DNA from: a virus
IMG/VR virus record: IMGVR_UViG_3300021356_000018
Location: 1-64,000 of that record
DNA length: 64,000 bases
Strand: one strand, 5' to 3'
In this document: piece after piece, positions 11,565 to 52,181 of the stretch
Position numbering within the stretch: the stretch's first letter is position 1
Layout: every line of letters begins with the position of its first letter
Position numbers and translations under genes: made by a program
The notes under the pieces: model-generated
Told to the model about the DNA's origin: nothing
The model's input: only the letters and a program-made list of their open reading frames with translations
Database searches by the model: none

Positions 11565-11586
11565 GGGCCAGTCATGGCCCTTTTTT
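11565..11586 (+). terminator. Terminator between convergent units
   Basis: Stem GGGCCA/TGGCCC with a GTCA loop and six T on the plus strand. It ends the small late gene; the end of hemC (minus strand) follows at once. Confidence 0.85.
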
Positions 11587-12406
11587 ATAATAGTGACATA
11601 CCGACTCGGATTCCAATGGTCTTAAATGAATCTAGATGACCTTCTTCATAGGCTAATTTACCATTCTCAAAGTTTTTAGCTACCATTCTGATATTCTCTC
11701 CGTCAATATAGGTTAATGCACCAATCGGTGTTTGACAATCTCCGTTTATTGTTTTAAGCATTTCTTTTTCTGCCATACAACAATACCACGTTTCCATATC
11801 ATTTTTGTTTTGTATTTGTTTAATACTTTGATCGCCCTTACGAGTTTGTAAAGCAATTACACCTTGACCAGGTGCAGGCATCATATCAGCAGTACCAAAT
11901 ATACGACTTGCTTTAATAGTAATTCCCATCGCATCAAGTCCTGCTTTTGCTAAAACAATAGCATCATATTCGCTATTTTCTTGTTTAGCAATTCGAGTAT
12001 CTATATTACCACGAATAGGAACAATTTCTGCACCAGGATATAATTCTTTTAATTGCCAAATTCTGCGAGGACTACTTGTGCCAATTGTTCTTGGATTAAT
12101 ATGATTACCAATAAGTGCATCTCTAAAATCTGCTCTTGGTAATACACAGGCGATTTCTAATTTATCATCATTATCACGAGTCAAATCTTTAAACGCATGA
12201 CAAGCAATATCGATGTCACCATCTATAAGTGATTGTTCTATCTCTTTTGTAAATACTCCTTTGCCACCCATTTCTTCAATGGATGTTGTAGGATTAAGGT
12301 CGGCTGTTGAATCGATATGTACGATATCTAAATCAAGCTCTAAATGTTTTAAAGCTTTGTTTGTATAGGCGATCGCTAAGTCTGATTTACGAGTTCCTAT
12401 TTTCAT
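11585..12406 (-). CDS. hemC: Porphobilinogen deaminase (hydroxymethylbilane synthase)
   Basis: Joins four porphobilinogen units into hydroxymethylbilane in haem synthesis. Visible are the N-terminal GTRKSDLA, GGKG followed by FTKEIE, the active-site segment DIACHAFKD (Asp74), GTSSPRR, LAKAGLDAMG and PAPGQG. Cys224 in NGDCQTPIG is the residue that binds the dipyrromethane cofactor, so the enzyme looks complete. At 273 aa it is slightly shorter than cellular forms (about 310), losing C-terminal length. It ends a minus-strand run with two small membrane proteins and tRNA-Glu upstream, and the start overlaps the previous stop. HemE is encoded 9 kb away on the other strand. Confidence 0.93.
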   Translation of the reverse strand: MKIGTRKSDLAIAYTNKALKHLELDLDIVHIDSTADLNPTTSIEEMGGKGVFTKEIEQSLIDGDIDIACHAFKDLTRDNDDKLEIACVLPRADFRDALIGNHINPRTIGTSSPRRIWQLKELYPGAEIVPIRGNIDTRIAKQENSEYDAIVLAKAGLDAMGITIKASRIFGTADMMPAPGQGVIALQTRKGDQSIKQIQNKNDMETWYCCMAEKEMLKTINGDCQTPIGALTYIDGENIRMVAKNFENGKLAYEEGHLDSFKTIGIRVGMSLL

Positions 12407-15377: not shown

Positions 15378-15385
15378 TATAAATA
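15378..15385 (+). promoter_or_regulatory. Late promoter of the accessory island
   Basis: Perfect TATAAATA 37 nt before the first gene of the csg/hem island. It lies back to back with the early promoter at 15305-15333. Confidence 0.85.
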
Positions 15386-15422: not shown

Positions 15423-15719
15423 ATGGAACAAATCTTGCAATTGATATCAGACGTCGGACTACCTATTGCTGGCGCACTAACAATGGGATTTTTCATATTT
15501 CTTATTATTAAGCAAATATTCGAAGGAATCATTGATAGTATCAAAACTCTAACAATTTTCAGTGAGGGTCTAGAAAATAGAGCGCGTTCTATGAGTAATG
15601 AAATTGTTAAAATCGACCTTTTAGTCAGTAGTGCATTAGACTTAAGACCTGATACGGATAGAATTGCAAGAGCAGAAAATTTTGTTGAAGACGGGAAAGT
15701 TGACGTAAGGAGAGACTGA
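15423..15719 (+). CDS. Holin-like small membrane protein A
   Basis: A 98-aa protein with one long hydrophobic segment (about 12-32) after a short N-terminus, followed by an amphipathic helical tail. It has the same layout as the protein at 15919-16224, so the two look like diverged copies. Position directly before csgF/csgG and the late promoter fit a lysis or secretion accessory role. Holin is a guess from topology. Confidence 0.6.
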   Translation: MEQILQLISDVGLPIAGALTMGFFIFLIIKQIFEGIIDSIKTLTIFSEGLENRARSMSNEIVKIDLLVSSALDLRPDTDRIARAENFVEDGKVDVRRD

Positions 15720-15929
15720 ATGTTATATTTTGATTTTCCATTTTCTATTACTGAAAATGGGTTGAAGTTAATTGGTGTGGATACAGAATTGGAACCACAT
15801 CAGCAAGTAAAAGTTGATAGAACACCGCTTAATGTAGGTGATACTTTTACATTGGAGTTAGATGAAGATGGATGTATGGTTTTTAGAAAACATGCACCAG
15901 TACAATATGAGTTAAACTTTGGAATTTGA
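15720..15929 (+). CDS. Small beta-rich protein, unknown
   Basis: A 69-aa soluble protein starting MLYFDFPFSITENG, probably all beta. It starts directly after the previous stop and overlaps the next gene by 11 nt, so it is tightly coupled between the two holin-like genes. Function unknown. Confidence 0.6.
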   Translation: MLYFDFPFSITENGLKLIGVDTELEPHQQVKVDRTPLNVGDTFTLELDEDGCMVFRKHAPVQYELNFGI

Positions 15930-16224
15930 TATAGCAACATTAATATCCGAATATGGCTTCCCAACAATCATGGTGGTAGGTCTAGGATATTTTGTTTATT
16001 TCGTTTGGAAATTTATTAACGAACAAATAAACCCAGCTATTGATAAACACCACATGCAACTTATTAAAGTGATTGATAGAGTAAGAATGCTCGACCAAGA
16101 CTTAATTCGTTTACAACAGAAAGTAAATGTAGTTTTGGAATATCGAGCAAGACAAGAACTGATGCAACACTATGATGATAAAATTGAGGCAGAGAAAAAA
16201 GATGAAAAAACTAAAGATAATTAA
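15919..16224 (+). CDS. Holin-like small membrane protein B
   Basis: A 101-aa protein with one membrane segment (about 14-33) and a coiled-coil, strongly charged C-terminal tail. The start is TTG at 15919, chosen because it gives the same N-terminal layout as the protein at 15423; an internal ATG would cut the membrane segment. The 3' end overlaps csgF. Possibly works with its relative and with CsgG in the envelope (inference). Confidence 0.6.
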   Translation: MEFDIATLISEYGFPTIMVVGLGYFVYFVWKFINEQINPAIDKHHMQLIKVIDRVRMLDQDLIRLQQKVNVVLEYRARQELMQHYDDKIEAEKKDEKTKDN

Positions 16225-16714
16225 TAAGACATTACTAGGGATTCTAGTTTTACTTTTATACTTTAGTGCACAGCATGTAATGGCTGAGCCTATTGTTCAT
16301 AAATTTAAAAATCCATCTTTTAGTGGAGTAGGAACTGGTGCTCATTACTTAACTATTGAGAACCAAGAACACAGCAGAAAGAAAGCAATTAAAGATGCTC
16401 TTGAAGCTGCAGAAAGAGCTGCACAAAGAGAATTAGATAATTCTACTCTATCAAAGTTTATTCGTAACTTGGAAAGTAGAATTTATGCTCAGTTAGCAAA
16501 ACAGTTAGTAGACAATATGTTCTCTAACGATGACGCAGTAAGATTTGGATCTTTTACATTGGAAGGTTCAGTCGTAACATATGAAGTCATTACAAATGCA
16601 GACGGTACAGAATTTATTAAGATGACAATTACTGACGAGAATGGTACTACAACTGTTATCGAGATTCCAGTAGGTACAGGAAACTTTGGAAGTGAGAATC
16701 CAGATGGCGGCTAA
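16202..16714 (+). CDS. csgF: Curli assembly protein CsgF-like
   Basis: Exported protein of 170 aa with a signal peptide (MKKLK start, hydrophobic core, VMA-E cleavage) and then VHKFKNPSFSG, which matches the N-terminal segment by which CsgF enters the CsgG pore and narrows it. The C-terminal part has ITDENGTTTVIEIPVG, like the end of CsgF. ATG at 16202 is used; upstream in-frame ATGs extend into the previous gene without need. It overlaps csgG by 11 nt, so both are made together. Confidence 0.85.
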   Translation: MKKLKIINKTLLGILVLLLYFSAQHVMAEPIVHKFKNPSFSGVGTGAHYLTIENQEHSRKKAIKDALEAAERAAQRELDNSTLSKFIRNLESRIYAQLAKQLVDNMFSNDDAVRFGSFTLEGSVVTYEVITNADGTEFIKMTITDENGTTTVIEIPVGTGNFGSENPDGG

Positions 16715-17675
16715 AATATTACCTGCACTTATGTCAACACTTATCTTGGCAAGTTGTGCACAAATGCCACAGTGGTCTGATGGACCAGCTTATTGTGAAT
16801 ATGGCGAAGGAAGATTTGCACAAGGATTTAATACCGATTTTGATAATGATGGTATTATAAATGATGATGCTTTAAGTTTTGGAAAACAAATATATACCGG
16901 TACTCGTAAATATGTTGAAACAAAACAAATTTGTGTCGAGGCACCAGAAGTTGTAAGGTTACCATCATATATTGATTTGCTTAATTTACCACCTGCTAAA
17001 AATAAGCCTGTGGTTGCTGTATATAACTTTTTAGATAAAACAGGACAACGTAAAGATTCAGTTTCTGGTCAAAGCTTTTCAACAGCTGTAACTCAAGGCG
17101 GAACTGAATTATTAATTGATGCACTCAAAACAGCAGGTGATGGTGCATGGTTTAGAGTAGTAGAAAGACAAGGGATTGATGCTTTAGTGAGAGAACGACA
17201 AATTATTCGTTCTGGCCGAGACGAAGCTGCTAGAGTATTAGGCGAAGAGCCACAAAATTTAGGACCACTTTTATTCGCAGGAATGATAATCGAAGGTGGT
17301 ATTATCGGTTATGATAGTAATATTAAAACCGGTGGCAGAGGAGCAAGAACACTTGGTATTGGATTTAGTAAACAATACAGACAAGACCAAGTAACTGTTT
17401 CCGTAAGAGCAGTATCTGTTCTTACAGGTGAAGTACTATTGAACGTACAAACGAAAAAGACAATTTTAAGTTATGGCTCAGGTGGTGATTTATTTAGATT
17501 TTATGAACAAGGAACACAGTTAGTAGAGTATGAAGACGGTGTAGGAAATAATGAGAGTGTGACGTATGCAGTGCGAACAGCAATAGAAGCTGCCGTGCTG
17601 GAAATGGTCTATCAAGGTAATCGTCGTGGATACTGGGAAATAGACTGGAATAAAAATAAAGAGGAAGAAGAATGA
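16704..17675 (+). CDS. csgG: Curli secretion channel CsgG
   Basis: Outer-membrane lipoprotein channel, 323 aa. The signal sequence ends in the lipobox LASC (Cys18). The CsgG domain includes VVAVYNFLDKTGQ, WFRVVERQGIDAL, the RQIIRSGR stretch, GGIIGYDSNIKTGG and VTVSVRAVSVLTGE. In E. coli nine copies form the pore that exports curlin subunits. The ATG at 16704 is preferred to TTG upstream. The last 10 residues are very acidic. The next gene overlaps by 4 nt and encodes a curlin-like substrate. Confidence 0.93.
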   Translation: MAAKILPALMSTLILASCAQMPQWSDGPAYCEYGEGRFAQGFNTDFDNDGIINDDALSFGKQIYTGTRKYVETKQICVEAPEVVRLPSYIDLLNLPPAKNKPVVAVYNFLDKTGQRKDSVSGQSFSTAVTQGGTELLIDALKTAGDGAWFRVVERQGIDALVRERQIIRSGRDEAARVLGEEPQNLGPLLFAGMIIEGGIIGYDSNIKTGGRGARTLGIGFSKQYRQDQVTVSVRAVSVLTGEVLLNVQTKKTILSYGSGGDLFRFYEQGTQLVEYEDGVGNNESVTYAVRTAIEAAVLEMVYQGNRRGYWEIDWNKNKEEEE

Positions 17676-18397
17676 TTAGAAAACTTTTAGGCCTAAGTTT
17701 AATTATTCCAACTTTCGCATTTGCGCAAGCTACTGACGATAATGAAATTAATATTGAGCAGGTTGGTGATACTTTAACACTATACATTGACCAATATGGA
17801 TATGGTAACAAAATAGGATTGGACAACTTTTCAAGTAGTTCAAGTGCTATGGTAATTACTGGTTCAAGCTTAGATATTGATATCGACCAAATAGGTAACG
17901 AAAACTTGTTATTTGGTACATTAACAGCAGATAGCTATGTTATGAATCTATTGTTTACTGGTGACAGTAACTCTTGGGATTGGAACATTGGTGATACAGG
18001 CTCATCTGATAGCTCTACAATGGATGTGGATATCACAGGTGATTCTAACACTATGGACTTTGACCAAGGATTTAATGCAAGTGCTGAGAGATTGGATTTT
18101 GATTTAACCTTAATAGGTGACAGTAATATTTTTGATGTTGATATTGACGTGGACGACGCAATATGGAATTTTGACGTAACGGGTGGTTCAAACAATATTA
18201 ATACTATGCAGAAAGATGGAGCAGAACATGAGATTAATTTAACTCTCGATGGTTCATCTGCTGATATTGATATTAATCAAATGAGTGGAACATGCCCTAC
18301 AGGTGTATCAACTTGTAATGGCATTATTACATTAGATGTCGACAGCGAAAATGCTACAATTCAGATTAATCAAAAAGATTCATCTAACGATAGCTAG
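17672..18397 (+). CDS. Curlin-repeat exported protein 1 (CsgA/CsgB-like)
   Basis: A 241-aa exported protein with a clean signal peptide (cleavage after AFA-Q near residue 19). After NEINIEQVGD and IDQYGYGNKI come repeated blocks of alternating hydrophobic residues with Q-x-G or G-D-S/N-x steps, the pattern of curlin beta-solenoid repeats, though very Asp-rich. A Cys pair lies near the C-terminus (TCPTGVSTCNG). It is the likely substrate of CsgG, with a 4-nt overlap. The high Asp content is unlike E. coli CsgA. Confidence 0.8.
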   Translation: MIRKLLGLSLIIPTFAFAQATDDNEINIEQVGDTLTLYIDQYGYGNKIGLDNFSSSSSAMVITGSSLDIDIDQIGNENLLFGTLTADSYVMNLLFTGDSNSWDWNIGDTGSSDSSTMDVDITGDSNTMDFDQGFNASAERLDFDLTLIGDSNIFDVDIDVDDAIWNFDVTGGSNNINTMQKDGAEHEINLTLDGSSADIDINQMSGTCPTGVSTCNGIITLDVDSENATIQINQKDSSNDS

Positions 18398-19502
18398 TAT
18401 TTTCCTAATGTTGCCGTTGAGTTTGTCTGCAGCAGACTCAATTGGCAACATTGTTGAATACAAAGGCGATGCAACTTTAACCAGAGAAGCTGGTGAAGAG
18501 TTTGTAGTAACTGGTGCGTTTATACCAGACATCGAAATGAACGATACGGCCGAAACAGAAAATGGCCGAATTAAAATAGAATTTTTAGACGAGGCAGAAC
18601 TTAGCCTCACAGAAAACACAAAAGTATACATCGATAAAGTATACTATGACCCAGACCCAAGCAAATCAAAAATGGCCATGAGAATGGCAATGGGAACTGC
18701 AAGATTTGCATCTGGTCGTTTGGGTATGGTCAATAAAAACAATATTGATATACAAACACCCACAGCTACAATATCAGTTCGTGGTACAGATTTTACAACA
18801 ACAATAGACGAATTAGGGAGGAGCCTCGTAGTACTACTTCCTGATGATAAAGGTAATCCATCAGGCACAATAGAAGTATTCAATCTGGGTGGTTCTGTGA
18901 TTCTAGATGAGGCCTACGCAGCTACAATGGTCTCAACTTTAGATAGTCCACCCACTAATTCTGTCACAATAAACAATATAACACCAGCGATGATTGATAA
19001 CATGTTTATCGTATCACCGCCTCAAGAAGTACAAGAATCTATAGACGAAGAGTTAGCAGATGACGCAAACCAAGACCAAGGTTTACTTGACATTGACTTC
19101 TTAGAATTTAATGAATTAGAATATGATTATTTAGCTGATGACGCTTTAGAATTTACAGAATTAGATATTGATTATCTTGATGTAGATTTCTTAACTGACC
19201 TTTTAGATGTAGTAGAAGAATTAGTTAAAACTACAGCAGCACTCGACGATAGAGCTATTTCAAGTAGTTCTTTTGGAGCACAACTTAAGGGTGCAGATTT
19301 TGGATTAAATGCAGATTCGCAATACAACGTTTTTGAAGATAGTGGTAGAATTGTATTTTACAGAAATGTACAAGGAACAATACGACTCGTATTTGCAGTA
19401 GATGCTTCAGTTAAACTTGACACTGAAGTAGATGGATATTCTGGTATCATTGACTTGAACAATGGCCAAAATTCAATAATTGTAATTAAGCAAGGTGGAT
19501 AA
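18351..19502 (+). CDS. Exported FecR-domain protein
   Basis: About 383 aa with a signal peptide (hydrophobic core around residues 12-24, SLSAAD cleavage) and a FecR domain between about 30 and 145, including PTATISVRGTDF, the family's signature. Residues about 230-290 are an acidic repeat of DIDFLEF-like units, and the C-terminus forms a small beta domain. The start is uncertain because the frame overlaps the curlin gene; ATG 18351 gives a sound signal peptide. FecR proteins bind in the periplasm and are often found next to CHASE2 cyclases, as here 2 kb downstream. Confidence 0.85.
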   Translation: MLQFRLIKKIHLTIASIFLMLPLSLSAADSIGNIVEYKGDATLTREAGEEFVVTGAFIPDIEMNDTAETENGRIKIEFLDEAELSLTENTKVYIDKVYYDPDPSKSKMAMRMAMGTARFASGRLGMVNKNNIDIQTPTATISVRGTDFTTTIDELGRSLVVLLPDDKGNPSGTIEVFNLGGSVILDEAYAATMVSTLDSPPTNSVTINNITPAMIDNMFIVSPPQEVQESIDEELADDANQDQGLLDIDFLEFNELEYDYLADDALEFTELDIDYLDVDFLTDLLDVVEELVKTTAALDDRAISSSSFGAQLKGADFGLNADSQYNVFEDSGRIVFYRNVQGTIRLVFAVDASVKLDTEVDGYSGIIDLNNGQNSIIVIKQGG

Positions 19503-19505
19503 ATA
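19498..19505 (+). promoter_or_regulatory. Possible late box GATAAATA
   Basis: GATAAATA at the FecR stop, just before the 29-aa ORF and the second curlin gene. It could give these genes extra late expression. Confidence 0.35.
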
Positions 19506-19508
19506 ATA

Positions 19509-19598
19509 ATGAGGTATAAAAATAATTACCAACGTTATTTAAGATTAAAATATGGATGGTTGCAAAGACCAGGACAGATAGTGGATATTTACATATGA
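19509..19598 (+). CDS. 29-aa leader ORF before curlin 2
   Basis: ATG at 19509 to TGA at 19598, basic and aromatic (begins MRYKNNYQRYLRL). AAGGTGG lies upstream, and the stop overlaps the start of the next gene as ATGA. That overlap fits translational coupling. It could be a genuine micro-protein or a control ORF. Confidence 0.45.
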   Translation: MRYKNNYQRYLRLKYGWLQRPGQIVDIYI

Positions 19599-20344
19599 AA
19601 GACGAAAAAATAGATAGAGGTTTACTATACTTAGGATGGTTCATTCTAGGAATGTATTTGTTTCTTGCTGCAGGAAAAGCTTATGGCGATAACGAAATCA
19701 GTATAGAACAAACCGGAGATAATCTTCAATTAGGCATCGACCAATTTGGTTATGATAATGTAATCCAAATGTTAGATAGTAATTCATACATTACAGCATC
19801 GAGTTTGGATATGTATTTGGTTCAATACAATGACCATACAACAACACTTCCTAATTCAATTACATTTGATGAAGTAAGTGGTTCAGGTAATCAAATGAAA
19901 TTAGGTCAAGGTGTCGATTGGGATACTCTCGATTCTGATACAGATTTAAATTGGTCATATGATTACTATGAAGGTGGTGGACACGAGATTGATATTACTT
20001 TATATGGTAACAATAATCAATTGGCAGTTCAACAAACAAACCAAACAGATGCAACAGACGGACACAACTTTGATTTACATTTAGCAGGTAGTAATAACGA
20101 AGTTAAAATTAAACAACAAAGTAGTGGCGTAAAGAATGTAGACCTTACAATATACAACGATTTTAACGATGTGTTCATTCGCCAAAAAGGCGCCAATGCA
20201 ACTCATAATGCTAATATTACTCTTGATGGTTTATATGGAACAGATTTAATTTTAAAACAAATGAGTACAACTAATCAGACATATAACTTATCAGTAGATT
20301 GTATGAACTCGAATGGTTGTGGTGTAACGGTGACGCAAGAATAA
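19595..20344 (+). CDS. Curlin-repeat exported protein 2
   Basis: About 249 aa. I start it at 19595 because of the ATGA overlap with the small ORF and because this gives a good signal peptide (hydrophobic 9-27, GKAYG cleavage). NEISIEQTGDNLQLGIDQFG repeats the opening of curlin 1, so the two are paralogues. Further strands carry Asn/Gln ladders (NNNQLAVQQ, NNEVKIKQQ, NDVFIRQKG), a closer match to CsgA than copy 1. Two Cys lie near the end (DCMNSNGCG). Likely CsgG substrate. Confidence 0.8.
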   Translation: MKDEKIDRGLLYLGWFILGMYLFLAAGKAYGDNEISIEQTGDNLQLGIDQFGYDNVIQMLDSNSYITASSLDMYLVQYNDHTTTLPNSITFDEVSGSGNQMKLGQGVDWDTLDSDTDLNWSYDYYEGGGHEIDITLYGNNNQLAVQQTNQTDATDGHNFDLHLAGSNNEVKIKQQSSGVKNVDLTIYNDFNDVFIRQKGANATHNANITLDGLYGTDLILKQMSTTNQTYNLSVDCMNSNGCGVTVTQE

Positions 20345-20655
20345 TGGAATTAGATATTTACGGAAATCCAGTAGGAACATTATATCCGGGTGATGAAGGT
20401 TGCCCTCAAGATATGATTTGTTTAACCGAAGAAGGATTTAACCAAATGCTTGCTGAAGCCGATATGCAATACAATACAGAAACGTTTCAAGTTGAGCCGA
20501 TGGGCGACGCAGAAGCTATTATAGATTTTACAACAGATTTGCTATTTTTAGATATATGGACAATTTTAAATATGGCAGTGCCTCTTACTATATTTGCCAT
20601 CTATGGCTTGACGCTATATGCTGGATTCAAATGGGTACAAAAACAATTTAATTAA
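20344..20655 (+). CDS. Tail-anchored membrane protein, unknown
   Basis: A 103-aa protein with a soluble acidic N-terminus (two Cys in GCPQDMIC) and one C-terminal membrane segment around 75-96 before WVQKQFN. The start overlaps the curlin 2 stop as TAATG, so it is coupled to the curlin genes and may act in their export or anchoring. No family recognised. Confidence 0.65.
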   Translation: MELDIYGNPVGTLYPGDEGCPQDMICLTEEGFNQMLAEADMQYNTETFQVEPMGDAEAIIDFTTDLLFLDIWTILNMAVPLTIFAIYGLTLYAGFKWVQKQFN

Positions 20656-20657
20656 TT

Positions 20658-21593
20658 ATGAAAACATTATTACAAAGGACCATACAGGATAAAGAGGTCA
20701 ATTTATATCCTGTTTGGTTAATGAGACAAGCCGGAAGATACATGCCAGAATATATGGCGATCAAAGAAAAATCAAATGGCTTTTTAGATATGGCTCTTAC
20801 TCCAAGTAAGGCAGCAGAAATTACAATGCAACCTATTAAAGAATTTGATATGGATGCAGCAATTATATTCTCAGACATATTAATAATCAATTATGCTTTA
20901 GGGCAAGAATTAGATTATACACCTAGTCCCGTACTGGGACCTTATAACGAATCTTTTTGGGAAACAACAGAAGGTGAGTTTATTCAAAAATGCGAACCTG
21001 TTTATGAAGCTATCAGAAGAGTAAGAGAAGAACTTGATGATAGTAAATCACTTATTGGTTTTGCAGCAGCTCCTTATACGCTCTGTAAGTACATGTGTGA
21101 TTCTGTAGATTCAGATATAGTTAACCGATTAATACCATATATTGTAACTCACCTTTCAATGCAGATTGAAGCTGGTTGTGATACGATACAAATATTCGAC
21201 AGTCATGCTGGTGATATATCGGAACATGACTTTGATGAAATTGTTATTGAACCAACAAAAATAATTGTTGATGTTATTCGAGCACATTATCCTCATGTTT
21301 GTATTATAGCTTTCCCAAGATTAGTTGGTGATAAAATAAACAAATACATCGAGATTGTCAATCCAGATTGTACAAATATTAGTGATGATAAACCCGTCGA
21401 TGAAATACACGGTGAAGTATTACAAGGTGGAATAACAGTACAAAGACTCATAAACGGAGAAGATATAACTCCTGTATTAGATAAAATGAAAGATAAACCT
21501 TACGTAGTAAATCTTGCTCATGGCATACATAAAACTACACCAGTAGAAAATGTGAGAGCATTAGTTAATACTGTTAAGGAATATCGTGCTTAA
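20658..21593 (+). CDS. hemE: Uroporphyrinogen decarboxylase
   Basis: Removes four carboxyl groups from uroporphyrinogen to give coproporphyrinogen. The signature PVWLMRQAGRYMPEY (Arg23, Arg27) and FSDIL with Asp73 are intact, as are FAAAPYTL and NLAHGIHKTTPVENVRALV at the C-terminus. It has 311 aa, slightly short for the family (about 340-350). It lies 2 nt after the previous gene and overlaps the cyclase gene by 8 nt. Together with HemC it covers two steps of the haem pathway; HemD and HemB are not in the window. Confidence 0.95.
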   Translation: MKTLLQRTIQDKEVNLYPVWLMRQAGRYMPEYMAIKEKSNGFLDMALTPSKAAEITMQPIKEFDMDAAIIFSDILIINYALGQELDYTPSPVLGPYNESFWETTEGEFIQKCEPVYEAIRRVREELDDSKSLIGFAAAPYTLCKYMCDSVDSDIVNRLIPYIVTHLSMQIEAGCDTIQIFDSHAGDISEHDFDEIVIEPTKIIVDVIRAHYPHVCIIAFPRLVGDKINKYIEIVNPDCTNISDDKPVDEIHGEVLQGGITVQRLINGEDITPVLDKMKDKPYVVNLAHGIHKTTPVENVRALVNTVKEYRA

Positions 21594-23658
21594 ATATCTC
21601 ACAAAATGGTGGACTGTATTAATTACGATTGGTGCATTCGGTGCTTTACAAATTAGTAATCCAGATATAATTCAATCTTTTAAATATTCTTATTATGACT
21701 ATCTACAATCAACACAAGAAACAATACAGTCAAGCGATATAGTATTAGTCAATATTGACGAAAAGGCGATCGCTCAAGAAGGTCAGTATCCATGGCCTCG
21801 AGATATAGTTGCTAAATATTTAAATGAAGCTCCTGCTGATGCACTTAATGTATTGAACATAATATATTCCGAACAAGATAGATTTGGTAAAGACAATGAC
21901 CTCGCAGAAGCAATGGCAAATAAAGCTGTCGTATTATCTTCTGCTCCCACTCAACAAACATCAGATGGAGTTGGAACCTTCGTTGGTGTTGCATTATTTG
22001 GAGAACAAAATGATAACTGGCTTTACGAATTCCCAGGCTTACTCTATCCTATTAATGAGTTATCTAGCTGGGCTTTTGGGGTTGGTGCTACTGTTGCAAT
22101 TCCTGACCAACCAACAGGAGTCGTGCGACGTGCACCGCTCGTTGTCAAAGCAGCCGGGAATCCCTACCCATCTCTCGCACTCGACACATTACGTGTGTAC
22201 TCTGGAGAACCAAGCTATCAGATGAAAGTCGGCACTAACGGTGTCGAATGGATTCGTATGGGAAGACAAAATCCAATTACAACAAACTCTTTTGCAGAAG
22301 TACCAATATCTTTTTGGAATGAGTTTGACTCAATCAGTATAACAGAATTATCTGAACGAACAACTCATGGCCAGAATCCCTGGAGCGGTAAAGTACTTTT
22401 ATATGGAATAACCGCAGAAGGTTACTCTAATCCAGTCGCAACCCCAATGGGTGCAAAGTATCCCCACGAAGTTCAAGCTCATCTGATTCAAACCGTTCTT
22501 TCAGGAGTTGAAATACAGATTCCCGACTGGCAGCCAATATTTGAGCTCGTCTTTCTTCTGATATGCTGTTTAGGAATCCTTGCAGCGGTCTATGGACTTC
22601 CCACAATTCCTGCGGTGATAAGTTCTCTTGCTCTTGTTGGTTCCGCTTACGGAGTAAGCTACTGGCTTTGGACCGATTCATTGACATTCGTCGACGCGAC
22701 ATTGAGTTCATTTGCTTCCTTAGTAGTATTTGCTCAATCAAGTTATAATAAGTATTATATCACGTTCCAAGAGAAACGTCAAATAGAAAAGCAATTTGCA
22801 GGTTATGCATCGCCCACAGTTGTTCGCCTCTTACAAGAGAATCCTTCTCTAATAAAAGATGGCATGAAACGTGAGATAAGTATTTGTTTTTCTGATTTGA
22901 GAGGTTTCACTCCGCTTGGGGAAAGTTTCGGTGACGACGTCAAAGGCTTGACTAAACTAATGAATGGATATATGGATGCTATCACCGAGCCTGTTCTCCA
23001 TGCAGATGGTATGATTATAAAGTATATAGGGGATGCGTCAATGCACATTCACAATGCACCTATAGAAGATAAAGAACATCCTAAAAATGCAGTACAAACT
23101 GGTATTAACATGCTTCGAGCAGTGGAGAAATTTAATGAACAGATTACGGCAGAAGGTAGACCACCAATTGGTATGGGGGCTGGGATTAACACTGGTCTTG
23201 GTTATCTTGGTGAGATGGGGTCTACAGCAAGACATAGTTATGACGTCCTTGGCGACAGCGTTTCAACTGCTGCACGAATTGAGTCAAAATGTAAAGAATA
23301 TGGTTGCTTATTATTAGTCGGTGAAGAAACAGTTAAACGATGTTCTCCTAATGATTTCTTTTTCTTAAAAGTAGATGACCTTGCAGTGAAAGGAAAAACA
23401 GTCGGAATTGGAATACACACTGTGTTAGACCTAGATAAGAATAAATATATTAAACCAGCAGAGATGCACGAAGCAATGCATTCAAATTATCAAAAGCAAA
23501 ACTTTGATAAGGCGATAAAAATATGTAATGACCTCATGGATTGCTTCGAAGGACAAATGCAAGGTTATTATAAAATGTGGATTGAGCGTTGTGAGTATAT
23601 GAAAACGCAAGATCTTCCGAAGGACTGGAATGGAGTTTTCATCGCGACCACTAAGTAG
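21586..23658 (+). CDS. CHASE2-sensor class III adenylate/guanylate cyclase
   Basis: A 690-aa membrane cyclase. Residues 8-22 are a membrane segment, about 30-310 an extracytoplasmic CHASE2 domain (IVLVNIDEKAIAQEGQYPWP), then three membrane segments at about 318-384, and a class III catalytic domain from about 428. Metal ligands Asp437 (FSDLRGFT) and Asp483 (YIGDAS), base-binding Lys479 and Asp553, and Arg564 are present. The transition-state Asn of the NxxxR motif is Ser560 (DSVSTAARIE), which may lower or change activity. About 75 residues follow the domain. The FecR gene nearby is a usual partner. Product cAMP or cGMP is inferred. Confidence 0.93.
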   Translation: MLKYLTKWWTVLITIGAFGALQISNPDIIQSFKYSYYDYLQSTQETIQSSDIVLVNIDEKAIAQEGQYPWPRDIVAKYLNEAPADALNVLNIIYSEQDRFGKDNDLAEAMANKAVVLSSAPTQQTSDGVGTFVGVALFGEQNDNWLYEFPGLLYPINELSSWAFGVGATVAIPDQPTGVVRRAPLVVKAAGNPYPSLALDTLRVYSGEPSYQMKVGTNGVEWIRMGRQNPITTNSFAEVPISFWNEFDSISITELSERTTHGQNPWSGKVLLYGITAEGYSNPVATPMGAKYPHEVQAHLIQTVLSGVEIQIPDWQPIFELVFLLICCLGILAAVYGLPTIPAVISSLALVGSAYGVSYWLWTDSLTFVDATLSSFASLVVFAQSSYNKYYITFQEKRQIEKQFAGYASPTVVRLLQENPSLIKDGMKREISICFSDLRGFTPLGESFGDDVKGLTKLMNGYMDAITEPVLHADGMIIKYIGDASMHIHNAPIEDKEHPKNAVQTGINMLRAVEKFNEQITAEGRPPIGMGAGINTGLGYLGEMGSTARHSYDVLGDSVSTAARIESKCKEYGCLLLVGEETVKRCSPNDFFFLKVDDLAVKGKTVGIGIHTVLDLDKNKYIKPAEMHEAMHSNYQKQNFDKAIKICNDLMDCFEGQMQGYYKMWIERCEYMKTQDLPKDWNGVFIATTK

Positions 23659-24259
23659 TTTATTACTAGGATTTCTTTTATTAGCAGTCCCGGTCTCAGC
23701 CTTTGTTCCAAAGGACCCATTTATTTCTGAAATCTCAGACGCGCGAAAAGAACTTATCAAAATGGGGCATGCAGCTCCTTACAATCAATTAACAGTTAAG
23801 AGAGTCGTTGTTGGTAAAGCAAGAGTAATGCCAAATGGTGCTATTGTTAATCTACCACACGGTCCTGATATGGTTCCCTCTTTTTACGCCTTACAACACG
23901 ACCCAAAATGGCAAGTAAAAAAAGAACCTAAATACGCAATAGACCACTGGACCGAAGATGAAAAACGAATCATAGATATACTTTTTTGGTCTGCTCAAGT
24001 ACTTGATGTCTATTCAACTTATCGTGGATTAAAATATGATTGTATAACCGAAGCAAATCCATTACTACCAGAAGTACCTGAGATACATGAAATGGTAGGA
24101 ATAAAACTTTTTATTATTGGTGGACTTGGCGCTTTGTCATCTGGTGATGAAAATTTTTGGTATGGATGGAAACTTGGCGCAGGTTTAACAACAGGTGCAG
24201 TTACAGTAAATAACTTTAGACTTTTAAGAAAAGCCGAAGGGCGATGTAATAGAAGATAA
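23630..24259 (+). CDS. Exported protein with DUF5658-like membrane region
   Basis: A 209-aa protein with an N-terminal signal sequence (SLLLGFLLLAVPVSA) and a C-terminal half resembling DUF5658: LDVYSTYRGLKYDCITEANPLLP followed by two weakly hydrophobic helices. The start overlaps the cyclase end by 29 nt with AAGGA upstream. Its place behind the cyclase suggests a linked envelope function. The DUF call is by motif memory. Confidence 0.65.
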   Translation: MEFSSRPLSSLLLGFLLLAVPVSAFVPKDPFISEISDARKELIKMGHAAPYNQLTVKRVVVGKARVMPNGAIVNLPHGPDMVPSFYALQHDPKWQVKKEPKYAIDHWTEDEKRIIDILFWSAQVLDVYSTYRGLKYDCITEANPLLPEVPEIHEMVGIKLFIIGGLGALSSGDENFWYGWKLGAGLTTGAVTVNNFRLLRKAEGRCNRR

Positions 24260-24267
24260 ATAACGGA

Positions 24268-24594
24268 ATGGTGGAACTAACAGATGCAGCAATACTTAAA
24301 GCGATTGAGAGAACAGAGAATGACAGCCGAGATACTATTCGTCTTGGTGTCACTGGGGGCGGGTGTGCTGGTTTTGAGTATATCATTGGTTACTCTGATT
24401 CAGTGGGCAATGACGATACTATCTTAGATTATGGCAAATTTAAAATTGCTATTGACGAGATGTCTAAGCCTTATCTAAAAGATTCTACTCTTGATTGGGT
24501 TCGCGAAGGACTCAATGAATACTTTAAAATTATTAATCCAAACGAAATAGCATCATGTGGATGCGGAGTATCAGTACAGTTTAAGGACGTTTAA
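24268..24594 (+). CDS. A-type Fe-S carrier (IscA/ErpA/HesB family)
   Basis: A 108-aa protein with the three conserved Cys of A-type carriers: one in GGGCAGFEY and two in CGCGVS near the C-terminus. These proteins carry Fe-S clusters to target enzymes. No other ISC or SUF gene is in the window, so it must work with the host's system. HesB-like genes are known in marine T4-like phages. Confidence 0.92.
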   Translation: MVELTDAAILKAIERTENDSRDTIRLGVTGGGCAGFEYIIGYSDSVGNDDTILDYGKFKIAIDEMSKPYLKDSTLDWVREGLNEYFKIINPNEIASCGCGVSVQFKDV

Positions 24595-48512: not shown

Positions 48513-49135
48513 ATTTGCTCCAAATCATTTTCTGCTCTTACGATTGCTTGTAACCTAAGTACATCTGCTAATACATCCCAAGAACTATCATGCGCTTTAA
48601 ATGTTTTATCCCATTTTTCTGTGTCGGCAATAGGACAGAATCCGTTTTGTTTGTTTTCAAAGTTAAATTTAGCATCAATATAAGTTCTCATATCACGTAC
48701 CATATAGTATTTCAAATAGTTATAGAGATGAGCTTTACGACCTTGACTATCAAAAAGTCTTGTAATAATAATTGGGTCGAAAGCATTACCACGAGTCCAC
48801 CAATGGCCGATATTTTCGTCAACAACTAAGTTGTGAAAATTTGATACGAACTCTTTTACTGTAAGGTCTTGCTGTGATGGTTTAATTTTATCACGAACTT
48901 CTTTAGATTGTTCTGACCAAAACTGAATTACATCTTGTTCAATCTCATAACCATATTCCTTAACTTGTTCTGCAACATTAAGCTTAAACCTACGAGTTTT
49001 ATTGATGTCTGCTGGAGTATAAGGATTTGTAGTAAAATTATCCCAGTCAAAAATCATTACTGAACAGTCAACGACTGCACAAGTTGTAGGCTCTGTGCCC
49101 ATTGTTTCAAAGTCAAGTACTAAATGTTTTTTCAT
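48509..49135 (-). CDS. dexA: DEDD 3'-5' exonuclease (DexA-like)
   Basis: A 208-aa DnaQ-fold exonuclease. LDFETMG gives the first two acidic ligands, WWTRGNAFDP the third and SSWDVLADV the last. Matches T4 DexA (227 aa), which degrades DNA from 3' ends. Overlaps the methyltransferase-like gene end by 4 nt. Confidence 0.87.
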   Translation of the reverse strand: MKKHLVLDFETMGTEPTTCAVVDCSVMIFDWDNFTTNPYTPADINKTRRFKLNVAEQVKEYGYEIEQDVIQFWSEQSKEVRDKIKPSQQDLTVKEFVSNFHNLVVDENIGHWWTRGNAFDPIIITRLFDSQGRKAHLYNYLKYYMVRDMRTYIDAKFNFENKQNGFCPIADTEKWDKTFKAHDSSWDVLADVLRLQAIVRAENDLEQI

Positions 49136-50364
49136 GTCATAAACTCGGTTATATCTACAGATGAGTGACTATCACGAATACGCTGTGATAAGTTGTCTTG
49201 GTACATAAATGTAGCATCTTCCATCGGTAATTTTTTCTCTATTGCTTTCTTAACCTGAGTAGCCATATCCCTTGCAGTTTTGTAAGGTACATTTTGGCAG
49301 ATGTGGTTGATGCTTTTCTCTGGGTCAAGTAATTCATAATCTTCAGGAAGTCCCATGATGTTCATTGCTTCCCTTATGTTTATATATCTATCTTCGACGG
49401 GGTGAGTAAGAACATGTGGCATATGTACTACAAATGCTCCAATGTATCGAATAGGAATTACTGTTCCTCTCCACATTACTCCACCACCTGCTTTAAGTTT
49501 TTCATATCGTCTCATACATTTATCGGCTTCTCTATCAAGTCCTAGCCCTCTCATGTATTCAGATACTTCAGCATAGTTTTTACCATGATGATGTATGATT
49601 TCACTTTCAACATTATACGATGCTCTTGTGAATGTTTCGTCTTCTCTTAATTCTGCAGCAAAATCACTATGAGTCATTCCGCCTTTTAATTCTTCTAGTA
49701 AGTATTTGTAGTATGGGTCATCTTGAGATGGAATACGCTTATTAATTGTTTCTGTTTGGAAATTAGATTTTGTTTCTAATAACAAGTCAGTAATGGTTGG
49801 CATCTCTTTGTCAAAATACTCAAATACTGGTACCTTATTTTTAAATACATCTTTTTTCCAAAAGAAATAAAACGATCGCCTACGAACTTGAGGATTACCA
49901 TGCAACAATGTCTTTGTAGTATAAATGGTCATGTTATAACCAGCTTCTTGCCCAATTTCCATAAGCTTCTTTTTCATAAATGCACCAACATTGGTAGCAA
50001 GAGCAGGAGCGTTTTCACCCCATAAAACTTTAGGAGCAATCTCATTGAGTACAAATTTTGTAGATTTTACAAGCCATTGGTTATTTGGATTCTGTTCACC
50101 ATAAGAATTGTGATAACTACTCAAACCTGCACAAGGACATACTGACGATACCACATCAACTTTCTTATATCGCTTAGGTGCATTCTCGCCATCAACAACG
50201 TGATATGGAATATTGTGGTCGTGTTCTTTATAATAATTTAACAAATGCTTTTCATTACCTTCAAATCCGCCGTATGTCATTAAGTACTCAGGCTTCTGTC
50301 CGTAAGCTTCGTCAGATGCTAATATCTCCCCTCCAATTAGTGGGATAATTCCTGCATGTTTCAT
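49132..50364 (-). CDS. C5-cytosine methyltransferase-like protein
   Basis: A 410-aa protein with motif IV SSVCPCAGLSS (catalytic Cys after Pro, Gln replaced by Ala), motif VI WGENAP, motif VIII PQVRRRSFYFF and motif IX REAMNIMGLPEDY of C5 methyltransferases. The usual N-terminal SAM motif (FxGxGG) is not evident: the start reads MKHAGIIPLIGGEI. It could be an active divergent enzyme, or bind rather than methylate. Next to glycosyltransferase genes and a dCMP hydroxymethylase. Confidence 0.8.
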   Translation of the reverse strand: MKHAGIIPLIGGEILASDEAYGQKPEYLMTYGGFEGNEKHLLNYYKEHDHNIPYHVVDGENAPKRYKKVDVVSSVCPCAGLSSYHNSYGEQNPNNQWLVKSTKFVLNEIAPKVLWGENAPALATNVGAFMKKKLMEIGQEAGYNMTIYTTKTLLHGNPQVRRRSFYFFWKKDVFKNKVPVFEYFDKEMPTITDLLLETKSNFQTETINKRIPSQDDPYYKYLLEELKGGMTHSDFAAELREDETFTRASYNVESEIIHHHGKNYAEVSEYMRGLGLDREADKCMRRYEKLKAGGGVMWRGTVIPIRYIGAFVVHMPHVLTHPVEDRYINIREAMNIMGLPEDYELLDPEKSINHICQNVPYKTARDMATQVKKAIEKKLPMEDATFMYQDNLSQRIRDSHSSVDITEFMT

Positions 50365-51497: not shown

Positions 51498-52181
51498 CTA
51501 TAGTTTGGATTCCCACTCCAAAAACTTTTGTTCGTCAAATAATTTAGTACCTCCAGCTGTGGTTATGTGCTGAATGTATTTACCCTTTTTACCCCAGTGA
51601 CCCCATTCGTTACTAATGCTTGTGTATTTACCATAATGGTTACCGACTAGGACATTAAACAATGATTGGTCATGCTGTGGTTGAGGCACATCAAGTTGTG
51701 CTCTCCAGTGGTCTTTTGTTGCTTCGTAATATTTTCTATCAAATAAAACTGTACCTGAGCAAAAGTATATATGCTCATCAGGTATTCCTAAGCGTTCGTT
51801 AAATCTTTTTTGTTTTGCAGCTGCTGCTTCTGTATTGTAGCCATAATCCATCATTGCTGAAAATTCATCGTTCTCAAATAAGTTAGGACAAATTTTAGTA
51901 ATAATAGCATCACTATCCAAGTACATAATTTTATCGTACCCTTGCTCGAATAGTTTGTAAATATAAAGTTTATGATAAGCAGGTGAGTATTGGCTACCTA
52001 ACCACTCATCTGTTGTAAGTCTGAAATACTCTGCATCATGTTGCATCGCATAAGCTTTTGCTCGTTGTGCTGAGTAATCGTAAAGTTCTTGTGCGTAATG
52101 AAATTTTTTCTTGCCTTCTGAGCGACCGCCATTCGGCTTTATCTGCACTTGAAAAACAAGGTTCTTTTCAATTTTACTCAT
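51498..52181 (-). CDS. Glycosyltransferase, GT8-like
   Basis: A 227-aa GT-A enzyme. MYLDSDAIITK is the DxD metal site, AKAYAMQHDAEYF precedes it, and FCSGTVLFDR and DQSLFNVLV follow as in GT8. Next to a weak -10 at 52207-52212 and a late-type box. Acceptor unknown. Confidence 0.82.
   Translation of the reverse strand: MSKIEKNLVFQVQIKPNGGRSEGKKKFHYAQELYDYSAQRAKAYAMQHDAEYFRLTTDEWLGSQYSPAYHKLYIYKLFEQGYDKIMYLDSDAIITKICPNLFENDEFSAMMDYGYNTEAAAAKQKRFNERLGIPDEHIYFCSGTVLFDRKYYEATKDHWRAQLDVPQPQHDQSLFNVLVGNHYGKYTSISNEWGHWGKKGKYIQHITTAGGTKLFDEQKFLEWESKL

Follow-up and report, generated by a model that had tools for sequence, protein, structure and literature searches.

A curli-type secretion cassette with a FecR-domain protein and a CHASE2-cyclase in a T4-like marine phage

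Gene content and extent of the cassette

We analyzed a curli-type secretion cassette in a 64,000-nucleotide (nt) stretch of viral DNA, positions 1 to 64,000 of IMG/VR record IMGVR_UViG_3300021356_000018, referred to here as the window. The source record, a virus contig, is 64,222 bases long and has a G+C content of 36%; genes for a T4-type terminase, portal, sheath, capsid, and DNA polymerase lie on the same contig. The DNA is that of a T4-like marine phage; judged by CsgG, it is nearest among cultured phages to Pelagibacter phage HTVC008M (52% identical) and Methylophilales phage Melnitz (47% identical). For the cassette, we computed gene content and order, conservation, selection, the position of the late promoter, folds, and homologies.

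The cassette encodes two small membrane proteins (TM1 and TM2), CsgF, CsgG, a first curlin, a FecR-domain protein, a second curlin, a tail-anchored protein, a HemE-like enzyme, and a CHASE2-adenylate cyclase (Table 1). Neighboring genes abut or overlap, CsgG and curlin 1 by 4 bases and curlin 2 and the tail-anchored protein by one. An earlier note, made from the sequence alone, had placed at 15423 to 20655 a curli-like secretion set that includes two curlin-repeat paralogues and a tail-anchored protein. Its identification of the set was correct, as judged by Pfam, hhalign, and the NCBIfam CsgA model, and a 103-amino-acid (aa) tail-anchored protein is present. The range was too short: the unit runs from 15423 to 23658, adding the UroD/HemE gene and the CHASE2-adenylate cyclase gene.

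TABLE 1 Features of the cassette and of other genes in the window (counts refer to phage loci with enough flanking sequence; ORF, open reading frame)
Feature	Position	Strand	Evidence or remark
T4-type late promoter box TATAAATA	15378..15385	+	45 nt 5' of first gene
TM1, small membrane protein, 98 aa	15423..15719	+	N-terminal hydrophobic segment; phrog_18771; 36/36 loci; purifying selection by sequence comparison
69-aa ORF	15720..15929	+	Few relatives, in L007, L021, L022, and L024 only
TM2, small membrane protein, 101 aa, TTG start	15919..16224	+	phrog_18771; paralogue-like to TM1
CsgF with signal peptide	16202..16714	+	PF10614, 1.2e-16; F-x-NP-x-F pore-binding motif kept
CsgG outer-membrane lipoprotein pore	16704..17675	+	Lipobox LASC; PF03783, 9.9e-55; solved CsgG, 3.6e-49
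Curlin 1, exported Asp-rich predicted beta-solenoid, 241 aa	17672..18397	+	NCBIfam CsgA model; fold model
Exported FecR-domain protein	18336..19502	+	PF04773; invariant Met at 18351 is the probable start; disordered acidic linker; beta domain at C terminus
Curlin 2, exported curlin-repeat paralogue	19556..20344	+	Conserved C-terminal Cys pair; V-x-V-T-Q end
Tail-anchored acidic protein, 103 aa	20344..20655	+	14/36 loci
HemE-like uroporphyrinogen decarboxylase	20658..21593	+	PF01208, 6.3e-69; optional cargo
CHASE2 sensor with class III nucleotide cyclase	21586..23658	+	CHASE2, 2e-30; Guanylate_cyc, 4e-16; 36/36 loci
hemC, porphobilinogen deaminase	11585..12406	-	PF01379, 2.1e-61
DUF5658 protein	23630..24259	+	Directly 3' of cassette
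Iron-sulphur carrier gene	24268..24594	+	Fe-S_biosyn, 1.2e-12; directly 3' of cassette
C5 cytosine methylase	49132..50364	-	
GT8 glycosyltransferase	51498..52181	-	

Conservation, selection, and late transcription

A scan of viral contigs with the window CsgG returned 322 relatives, 80 of which were kept, and presence counts were taken from the 36 phage loci that had sufficient flanking sequence. TM1, TM2, CsgF, CsgG, curlin 1, the FecR protein, and the CHASE2-cyclase were each found in all 36. Curlin 2 was present in 35, and the remaining locus has, in the curlin 2 position, a second copy nearer to curlin 1; the tail-anchored protein and hemE occurred in 14 and 4 loci, respectively. Pairwise ratios of nonsynonymous to synonymous substitution were well under 1 for all cassette genes, mostly 0.05 to 0.3. 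Curlin 2 had the highest values (0.17 to 0.30), and TM1, CsgF, CsgG, and curlin 1 had the lowest; all are rough, since many pairs approach saturation at synonymous sites. Judged by these sequence comparisons, purifying selection acts on the core set.

The T4-type late promoter box TATAAATA stands 5' of the first cassette gene in 31 of 40 distinct homologous loci, compared to 0.75 expected from shuffling, and was seen once in total, across loci, before CsgF, CsgG, curlin 1, FecR, curlin 2, or the cyclase. Within the window, the box is about as frequent as chance would have it (4 copies on the plus strand versus 3.6 expected); being no commoner than that, the in-window count was dropped as promoter evidence, and the conserved position alone is counted. 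The late-promoter unit proposed in the earlier note is borne out by this position across phages and not by the motif in the window. Because the box is conserved 5' of the first gene only, a single late transcription unit is supported.

The pore proteins and the absence of CsgE

CsgG scores above the Pfam cut-off for PF03783, its lipobox cysteine is invariant, and residues 84 to 317 align with solved Escherichia coli CsgG (3.6e-49), so that the predicted lipoprotein pore has the pore-forming fold; the protein falls below the NCBIfam equivalog cut-off for E. coli CsgG. CsgF, predicted to cap the pore, is likewise above the Pfam cut-off for PF10614, and a single-sequence search with it against solved structures gave nothing useful. 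The F-x-NP-x-F motif is kept in 10 of 11 alignment rows; in E. coli CsgF, this stretch binds inside the CsgG channel, and its residues are needed for CsgG binding (PMC12311626).

No match to CsgE (PF10627) was obtained in the window record, in 10 phage records of 81 to 156 kb, or in the Hyphomonas genome described below, using a search that was positive for the E. coli control; for the window record and the ten large phage records, this upholds the absence of CsgE proposed previously. CsgE has also been reported absent from alphaproteobacterial and pelagiphage modules (PMC9599517), and it is not a defining component of the alphaproteobacterial/pelagiphage branch of curli systems. Among phage records, OR851715.1, a 1.5-kb entry named "Salmonella phage S.Kent," has a CsgG 40% identical to that of the window and looks like bacterial DNA deposited as phage.

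The two curlins

Signal peptides of both curlins were recognized by inspection. Both proteins match Curlin_rpt just under the Pfam cut-off (8e-4 and 5e-3), and they are full-length homologues of each other (hhalign probability, 99.5%) that have in common the opening motif DNEI-x-IEQ-x-GD, as the earlier note had observed. Curlin 1 matches the NCBIfam CsgA model (3e-6), and the curlin 2 family profile matches 8c50 (2.2e-6), a solved curlin-repeat protein of CsgA type. Weak matches of the curlin profiles to retinoic-acid-binding proteins are of an unrelated kind and were set aside.

A model of curlin 1 built from a 27-sequence alignment (predicted local distance difference test [pLDDT] score, 80; predicted template modeling score, 0.77) is all beta, and curlin 1 is predicted to be a beta-solenoid, the outcome expected of a curlin substrate in the earlier note. 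Structural matches of the model include SufB/D-type helices (Z 17.8), putative adhesins (Z 13 to 14), the CsgA fibril (Z 10 but with a root mean square deviation [rmsd] of 9), and, by Foldseek, a "Curlin associated" protein of the viral library (template modeling score, 0.85). For curlin 2, the solenoid is suggested by homology to curlin 1 and 8c50. Five G-[DGNS]-x-N turn motifs recur in curlin 1 at steps of 22 to 26 residues, a count reached in 1 of 2,000 shuffles; curlin 2 has three, a count reached in 96 of 2,000. Curlin 1 is Asp-rich, with a net charge of -36, and curlin 2 is the fastest-evolving gene of the cassette.

In HTVC008M, the second curlin (locus L002, 10357 to 11679) contains a PA14 domain above the cut-off. 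PA14 domains are known from adhesins. The main texts of PMC9599517 and PMC9004378 do not mention this domain in the HTVC008M protein. Melnitz has been said to be without csgA and csgB (PMC9004378); this is contradicted by two Melnitz curlin proteins that score above the Pfam cut-off and are also present in the deposited annotation.

The FecR protein, the cyclase, and a bacterial counterpart

The FecR domain (PF04773, 4.2e-10) is above the Pfam cut-off. A signal-peptide-like N terminus leads directly into it at about residue 35, and the protein is without an N-terminal cytoplasmic anti-sigma domain before a transmembrane helix. The protein model (pLDDT, 69) matches the PupR C-terminal signaling domain with a Z of 15.5 (135 residues, rmsd 2.6) and anti-sigma factors with a Z of 13.6; a weaker match is to the adhesin cell-surface anchoring domain 5ix9 (Z 6.3, 22% identity). 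With FecIRA-type FecR regulators, the protein shares the cell-surface signaling fold but not the anti-sigma part. In the model, an acidic low-confidence linker follows the FecR domain, and the C-terminal beta domain (residues 308 to 388) was barely covered by the fold search. I-x-I-x-Q ends had suggested that the protein finishes in a curlin repeat; this candidate was rejected, as profile-profile comparison with both curlin families found nothing. The cyclase keeps both metal-binding Asp residues and the Arg of class III; the residue at the transition-state Asn position is Ser in the window subclade and in Melnitz and Asn in most other phage copies.

FecR, the cyclase, and a "histidine kinase" have been treated as additions that lie outside bacterial type VIII secretion system (T8SS) operons (PMC9599517). 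Hyphomonas sp. TMED17 (L091, NHBW01000006.1) is a counterexample for FecR and the cyclase. On a 705-kb contig of this metagenome-assembled genome (MAG), with bacterial genes on both sides, csgF, csgG, a curlin gene, fecR, and the CHASE2-cyclase gene are contiguous, as in the window; the operon differs in having one long curlin (504 aa) and no TM1 or TM2 beside it. In the CsgG tree, Hyphomonas joins the phage clade (100/98) and branches inside it at 94/78 on a long branch, and the GC content of the operon is near that of its own genome. The Hyphomonas operon may be a source of the phage module or a copy of it. Searching with a FecR profile turned up no further full-length relative among 385 genomes of the class and 398 genomes of the order sampled around Hyphomonas, so bacterial operons of this type are rare.

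Close CsgG matches in MAGs assigned to Flavobacteriales, Synechococcus, Rhodobacteraceae, and Planctomycetaceae fall among phage rows and were not used as bacterial examples. In these and other bins (L084 to L090, L092, L094, and L095), the phage-type curli cassettes probably come from phage contigs that were misbinned, so that curli genes annotated in MAGs of this kind may belong to viruses.

FecR also adjoins a CHASE2-cyclase as a divergent neighbor in two other genomes of the Hyphomonas family sample. Such pairs have also been published: in a Burkholderia biofilm operon, a LysM-FecR protein is encoded with a CHASE2 kinase (PMC5192318), and a Campylobacterota cyclic AMP (cAMP) cluster combines a CHASE2 adenylate cyclase with a FecR-domain protein (PMC9239204). 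In both, as in the window, an exported FecR protein is encoded near a CHASE2 receptor, which in Campylobacterota is an adenylate cyclase; the window pair differs in lying inside a curli operon, whereas the Burkholderia BiofilmReg operon has a histidine kinase and LysM-FecR. Because FecR-CHASE2 pairs recur and are published, a role as periplasmic CHASE2 partner is better supported than one in iron regulation, and we infer that the phage FecR protein is probably such a partner and not an iron regulator.

Small membrane proteins upstream of CsgF

TM1 and TM2 constitute one family, phrog_18771, to which all 30 members examined belong. None of the 30 matches a kinase family in Pfam or PHROGs, and the "histidine kinase" label given to the upstream genes (PMC9599517) looks wrong for predicted proteins of about 100 aa that are without a kinase domain. 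Nine of the 30 weakly match the holin family phrog_4898 (best, 1.1e-4), and there was no clear holin among the Pfam matches.

hemE and other genes in the window

The hemE product keeps MRQAGRY, FSDIL, FDSHAG, and NLAHG in alignment with bacterial HemE; it lacks a loop of about 18 residues, and its NCBIfam score of 241 bits is below the cut-off of 303 bits. Of 20 viral loci with hemE, 10 show other cassette genes in the available flank and 10 show none, some of these at contig ends. We rejected hemE as part of the machine on the basis of its presence in 4 of 36 flank-complete loci and its occurrence in phages with no cassette genes in the available flank; it is optional metabolic cargo in a variable slot. 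In the literature searched, hemE was not found as phage cargo, and HemE matches in phage records share no more than 33% identity and resemble bacterial DNA. What lies between curlin 2 and the cyclase varies from phage to phage, and loci L008 and L023 have two extra genes between hemE and the cyclase that by eye are glycosyltransferase-like and metallophosphoesterase-like.

With hemC, which was also seen in six other viral loci, the phage carries two heme-pathway genes; coproporphyrinogen oxidase and porphobilinogen deaminase genes have been noted in deep pelagimyophages (PMC7029224). A DUF5658 protein gene and an iron-sulphur carrier gene directly follow the cassette, and a C5 cytosine methylase gene and a GT8 glycosyltransferase gene lie elsewhere in the window. 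GT8 has been linked to modification of host lipopolysaccharide in pelagimyophages (PMC7029224).

Relation to known curli systems

SAR11 and OM43 phages are already known to carry this module, to which the window copy adds a heme-synthesis gene. The order described for the pelagiphage T8SS is upstream small gene(s), CsgF, CsgG, CsgA/B, FecR, a second CsgA/B, and adenylate cyclase, with no CsgC, CsgD, or CsgE (Wittmers et al. 2022, PMC9599517), and from CsgF to the cyclase, the core order of the window is the same. The arrangement of two substrates with FecR between them, which the earlier note had considered less familiar, was therefore already published and is also present in HTVC008M and Melnitz. 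Compared with the published module, the window adds the tail-anchored protein and hemE before the cyclase, and the gene product named as a histidine kinase is a membrane protein of about 100 aa with no kinase similarity. The HTVC008M and Melnitz cassettes likewise end in a nucleotide cyclase and have the same gene order but differ from the window in the absence of hemE, in CsgG sequence, and, for HTVC008M, in the PA14 domain of curlin 2.

With E. coli curli (csgBAC and csgDEFG), the window has in common the CsgG pore, the CsgF cap, and curlin-repeat substrates. In contrast to E. coli, no CsgE was found and CsgC and CsgD were not seen, FecR and the CHASE2-cyclase are added, and the substrates open with the curlin motif itself, and their rungs are irregular.

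Proposed function of the cassette

From these data, we infer secretion, fiber formation, signaling, and a benefit to the phage. We assign a probability of roughly 60% to the reading that the late operon secretes curli-type adhesive fibers and that FecR and the CHASE2-cyclase signal to cAMP. CsgG would be an outer-membrane pore capped by CsgF, in a type VIII module of the CsgE-less kind, through which two exported beta-solenoid curlins would pass to the outside and, late in infection, assemble on the infected cell, with the faster-evolving curlin 2 as the likelier adhesive or variable partner. The FecR protein and the cyclase would act together as an envelope sensor that monitors the periplasm or fiber assembly and changes cAMP. 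The phage may benefit through aggregation or capture of cells or through a coat against other phages. A more specific and less likely version is put forward tentatively: the phage would build adhesive fibers on its dying host and control this itself, with periplasmic FecR bound to the CHASE2-cyclase reporting fiber secretion and the change in cAMP acting on host physiology or on when late infection proceeds.

Several observations weigh against the secretion of adhesive fibers coupled to cAMP signaling. Both window curlins fall below the Pfam cut-off, no CsgE was found to gate the pore, and a Foldseek search of the Protein Data Bank with the curlin 1 model returned nothing better than an E value of 0.09. 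Cyclase activity is uncertain because Ser replaces the catalytic Asn in the subclade, and Melnitz-infected cultures were without clumping (PMC9004378).

The absence of clumping in Melnitz in turn favors an alternative in which the curlins are single solenoids that coat or modify the cell surface, for receptor masking or superinfection exclusion, and CsgG is an export route only. The few, irregular rungs of curlin 1 (turns 22 to 26 residues apart), its Asp-rich composition and net charge of -36, and the fast evolution of curlin 2 all fit such a coat. Nevertheless, CsgF, which couples secretion to nucleation in bacteria, is kept and constrained, and the two paralogues recall CsgA and CsgB, so we consider single solenoids unlikely.

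Control of lysis, with CsgG and CsgF reused as a gated pore or pinholin-like device and TM1 and TM2 as holin-like helpers, has been proposed for Melnitz (PMC9004378) and would fit both the late promoter and the weak likeness of TM1 and TM2 to phrog_4898. Lysis, however, requires neither two conserved exported solenoids nor FecR and the CHASE2-cyclase, yet all of these are kept across 36 loci, and CsgG in the outer membrane cannot alone depolarize the inner membrane. Furthermore, related freshwater SAR11 myophages are without the operon (PMC7029224), and both Pfam and the Melnitz annotation contradict the claim that this phage has no csgA or csgB. We regard a lytic role as quite improbable. An open CsgG channel through which the infected cell takes up nutrients, cofactors, or iron compounds, suggested in PMC7029224 and PMC9599517 and in keeping with the lack of a detected CsgE gate and with the heme genes of the phage, is very unlikely, as it leaves CsgF and two constrained curlins unexplained, late expression is poor timing for uptake, and hemE is optional (4 of 36 loci). 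Among the uses offered in the earlier note, amyloid-type fibers are better supported than nutrient entry or lysis.

Implications

Phage curli modules are widespread in the ocean, and published ideas about their function conflict. Three published points are affected by our analysis: the placement of FecR and the cyclase outside bacterial curli operons, the identification of upstream histidine kinases, and the description of Melnitz as lacking curlin genes. The late operon, the constrained and intact substrates, and the bacterial operon with FecR and a CHASE2-cyclase make the proposal of fibers plus signaling directly testable. If the more specific version, with control by the phage's own sensor, is true, a complete bacterial circuit of surface fiber plus second messenger would have been taken over by viruses.

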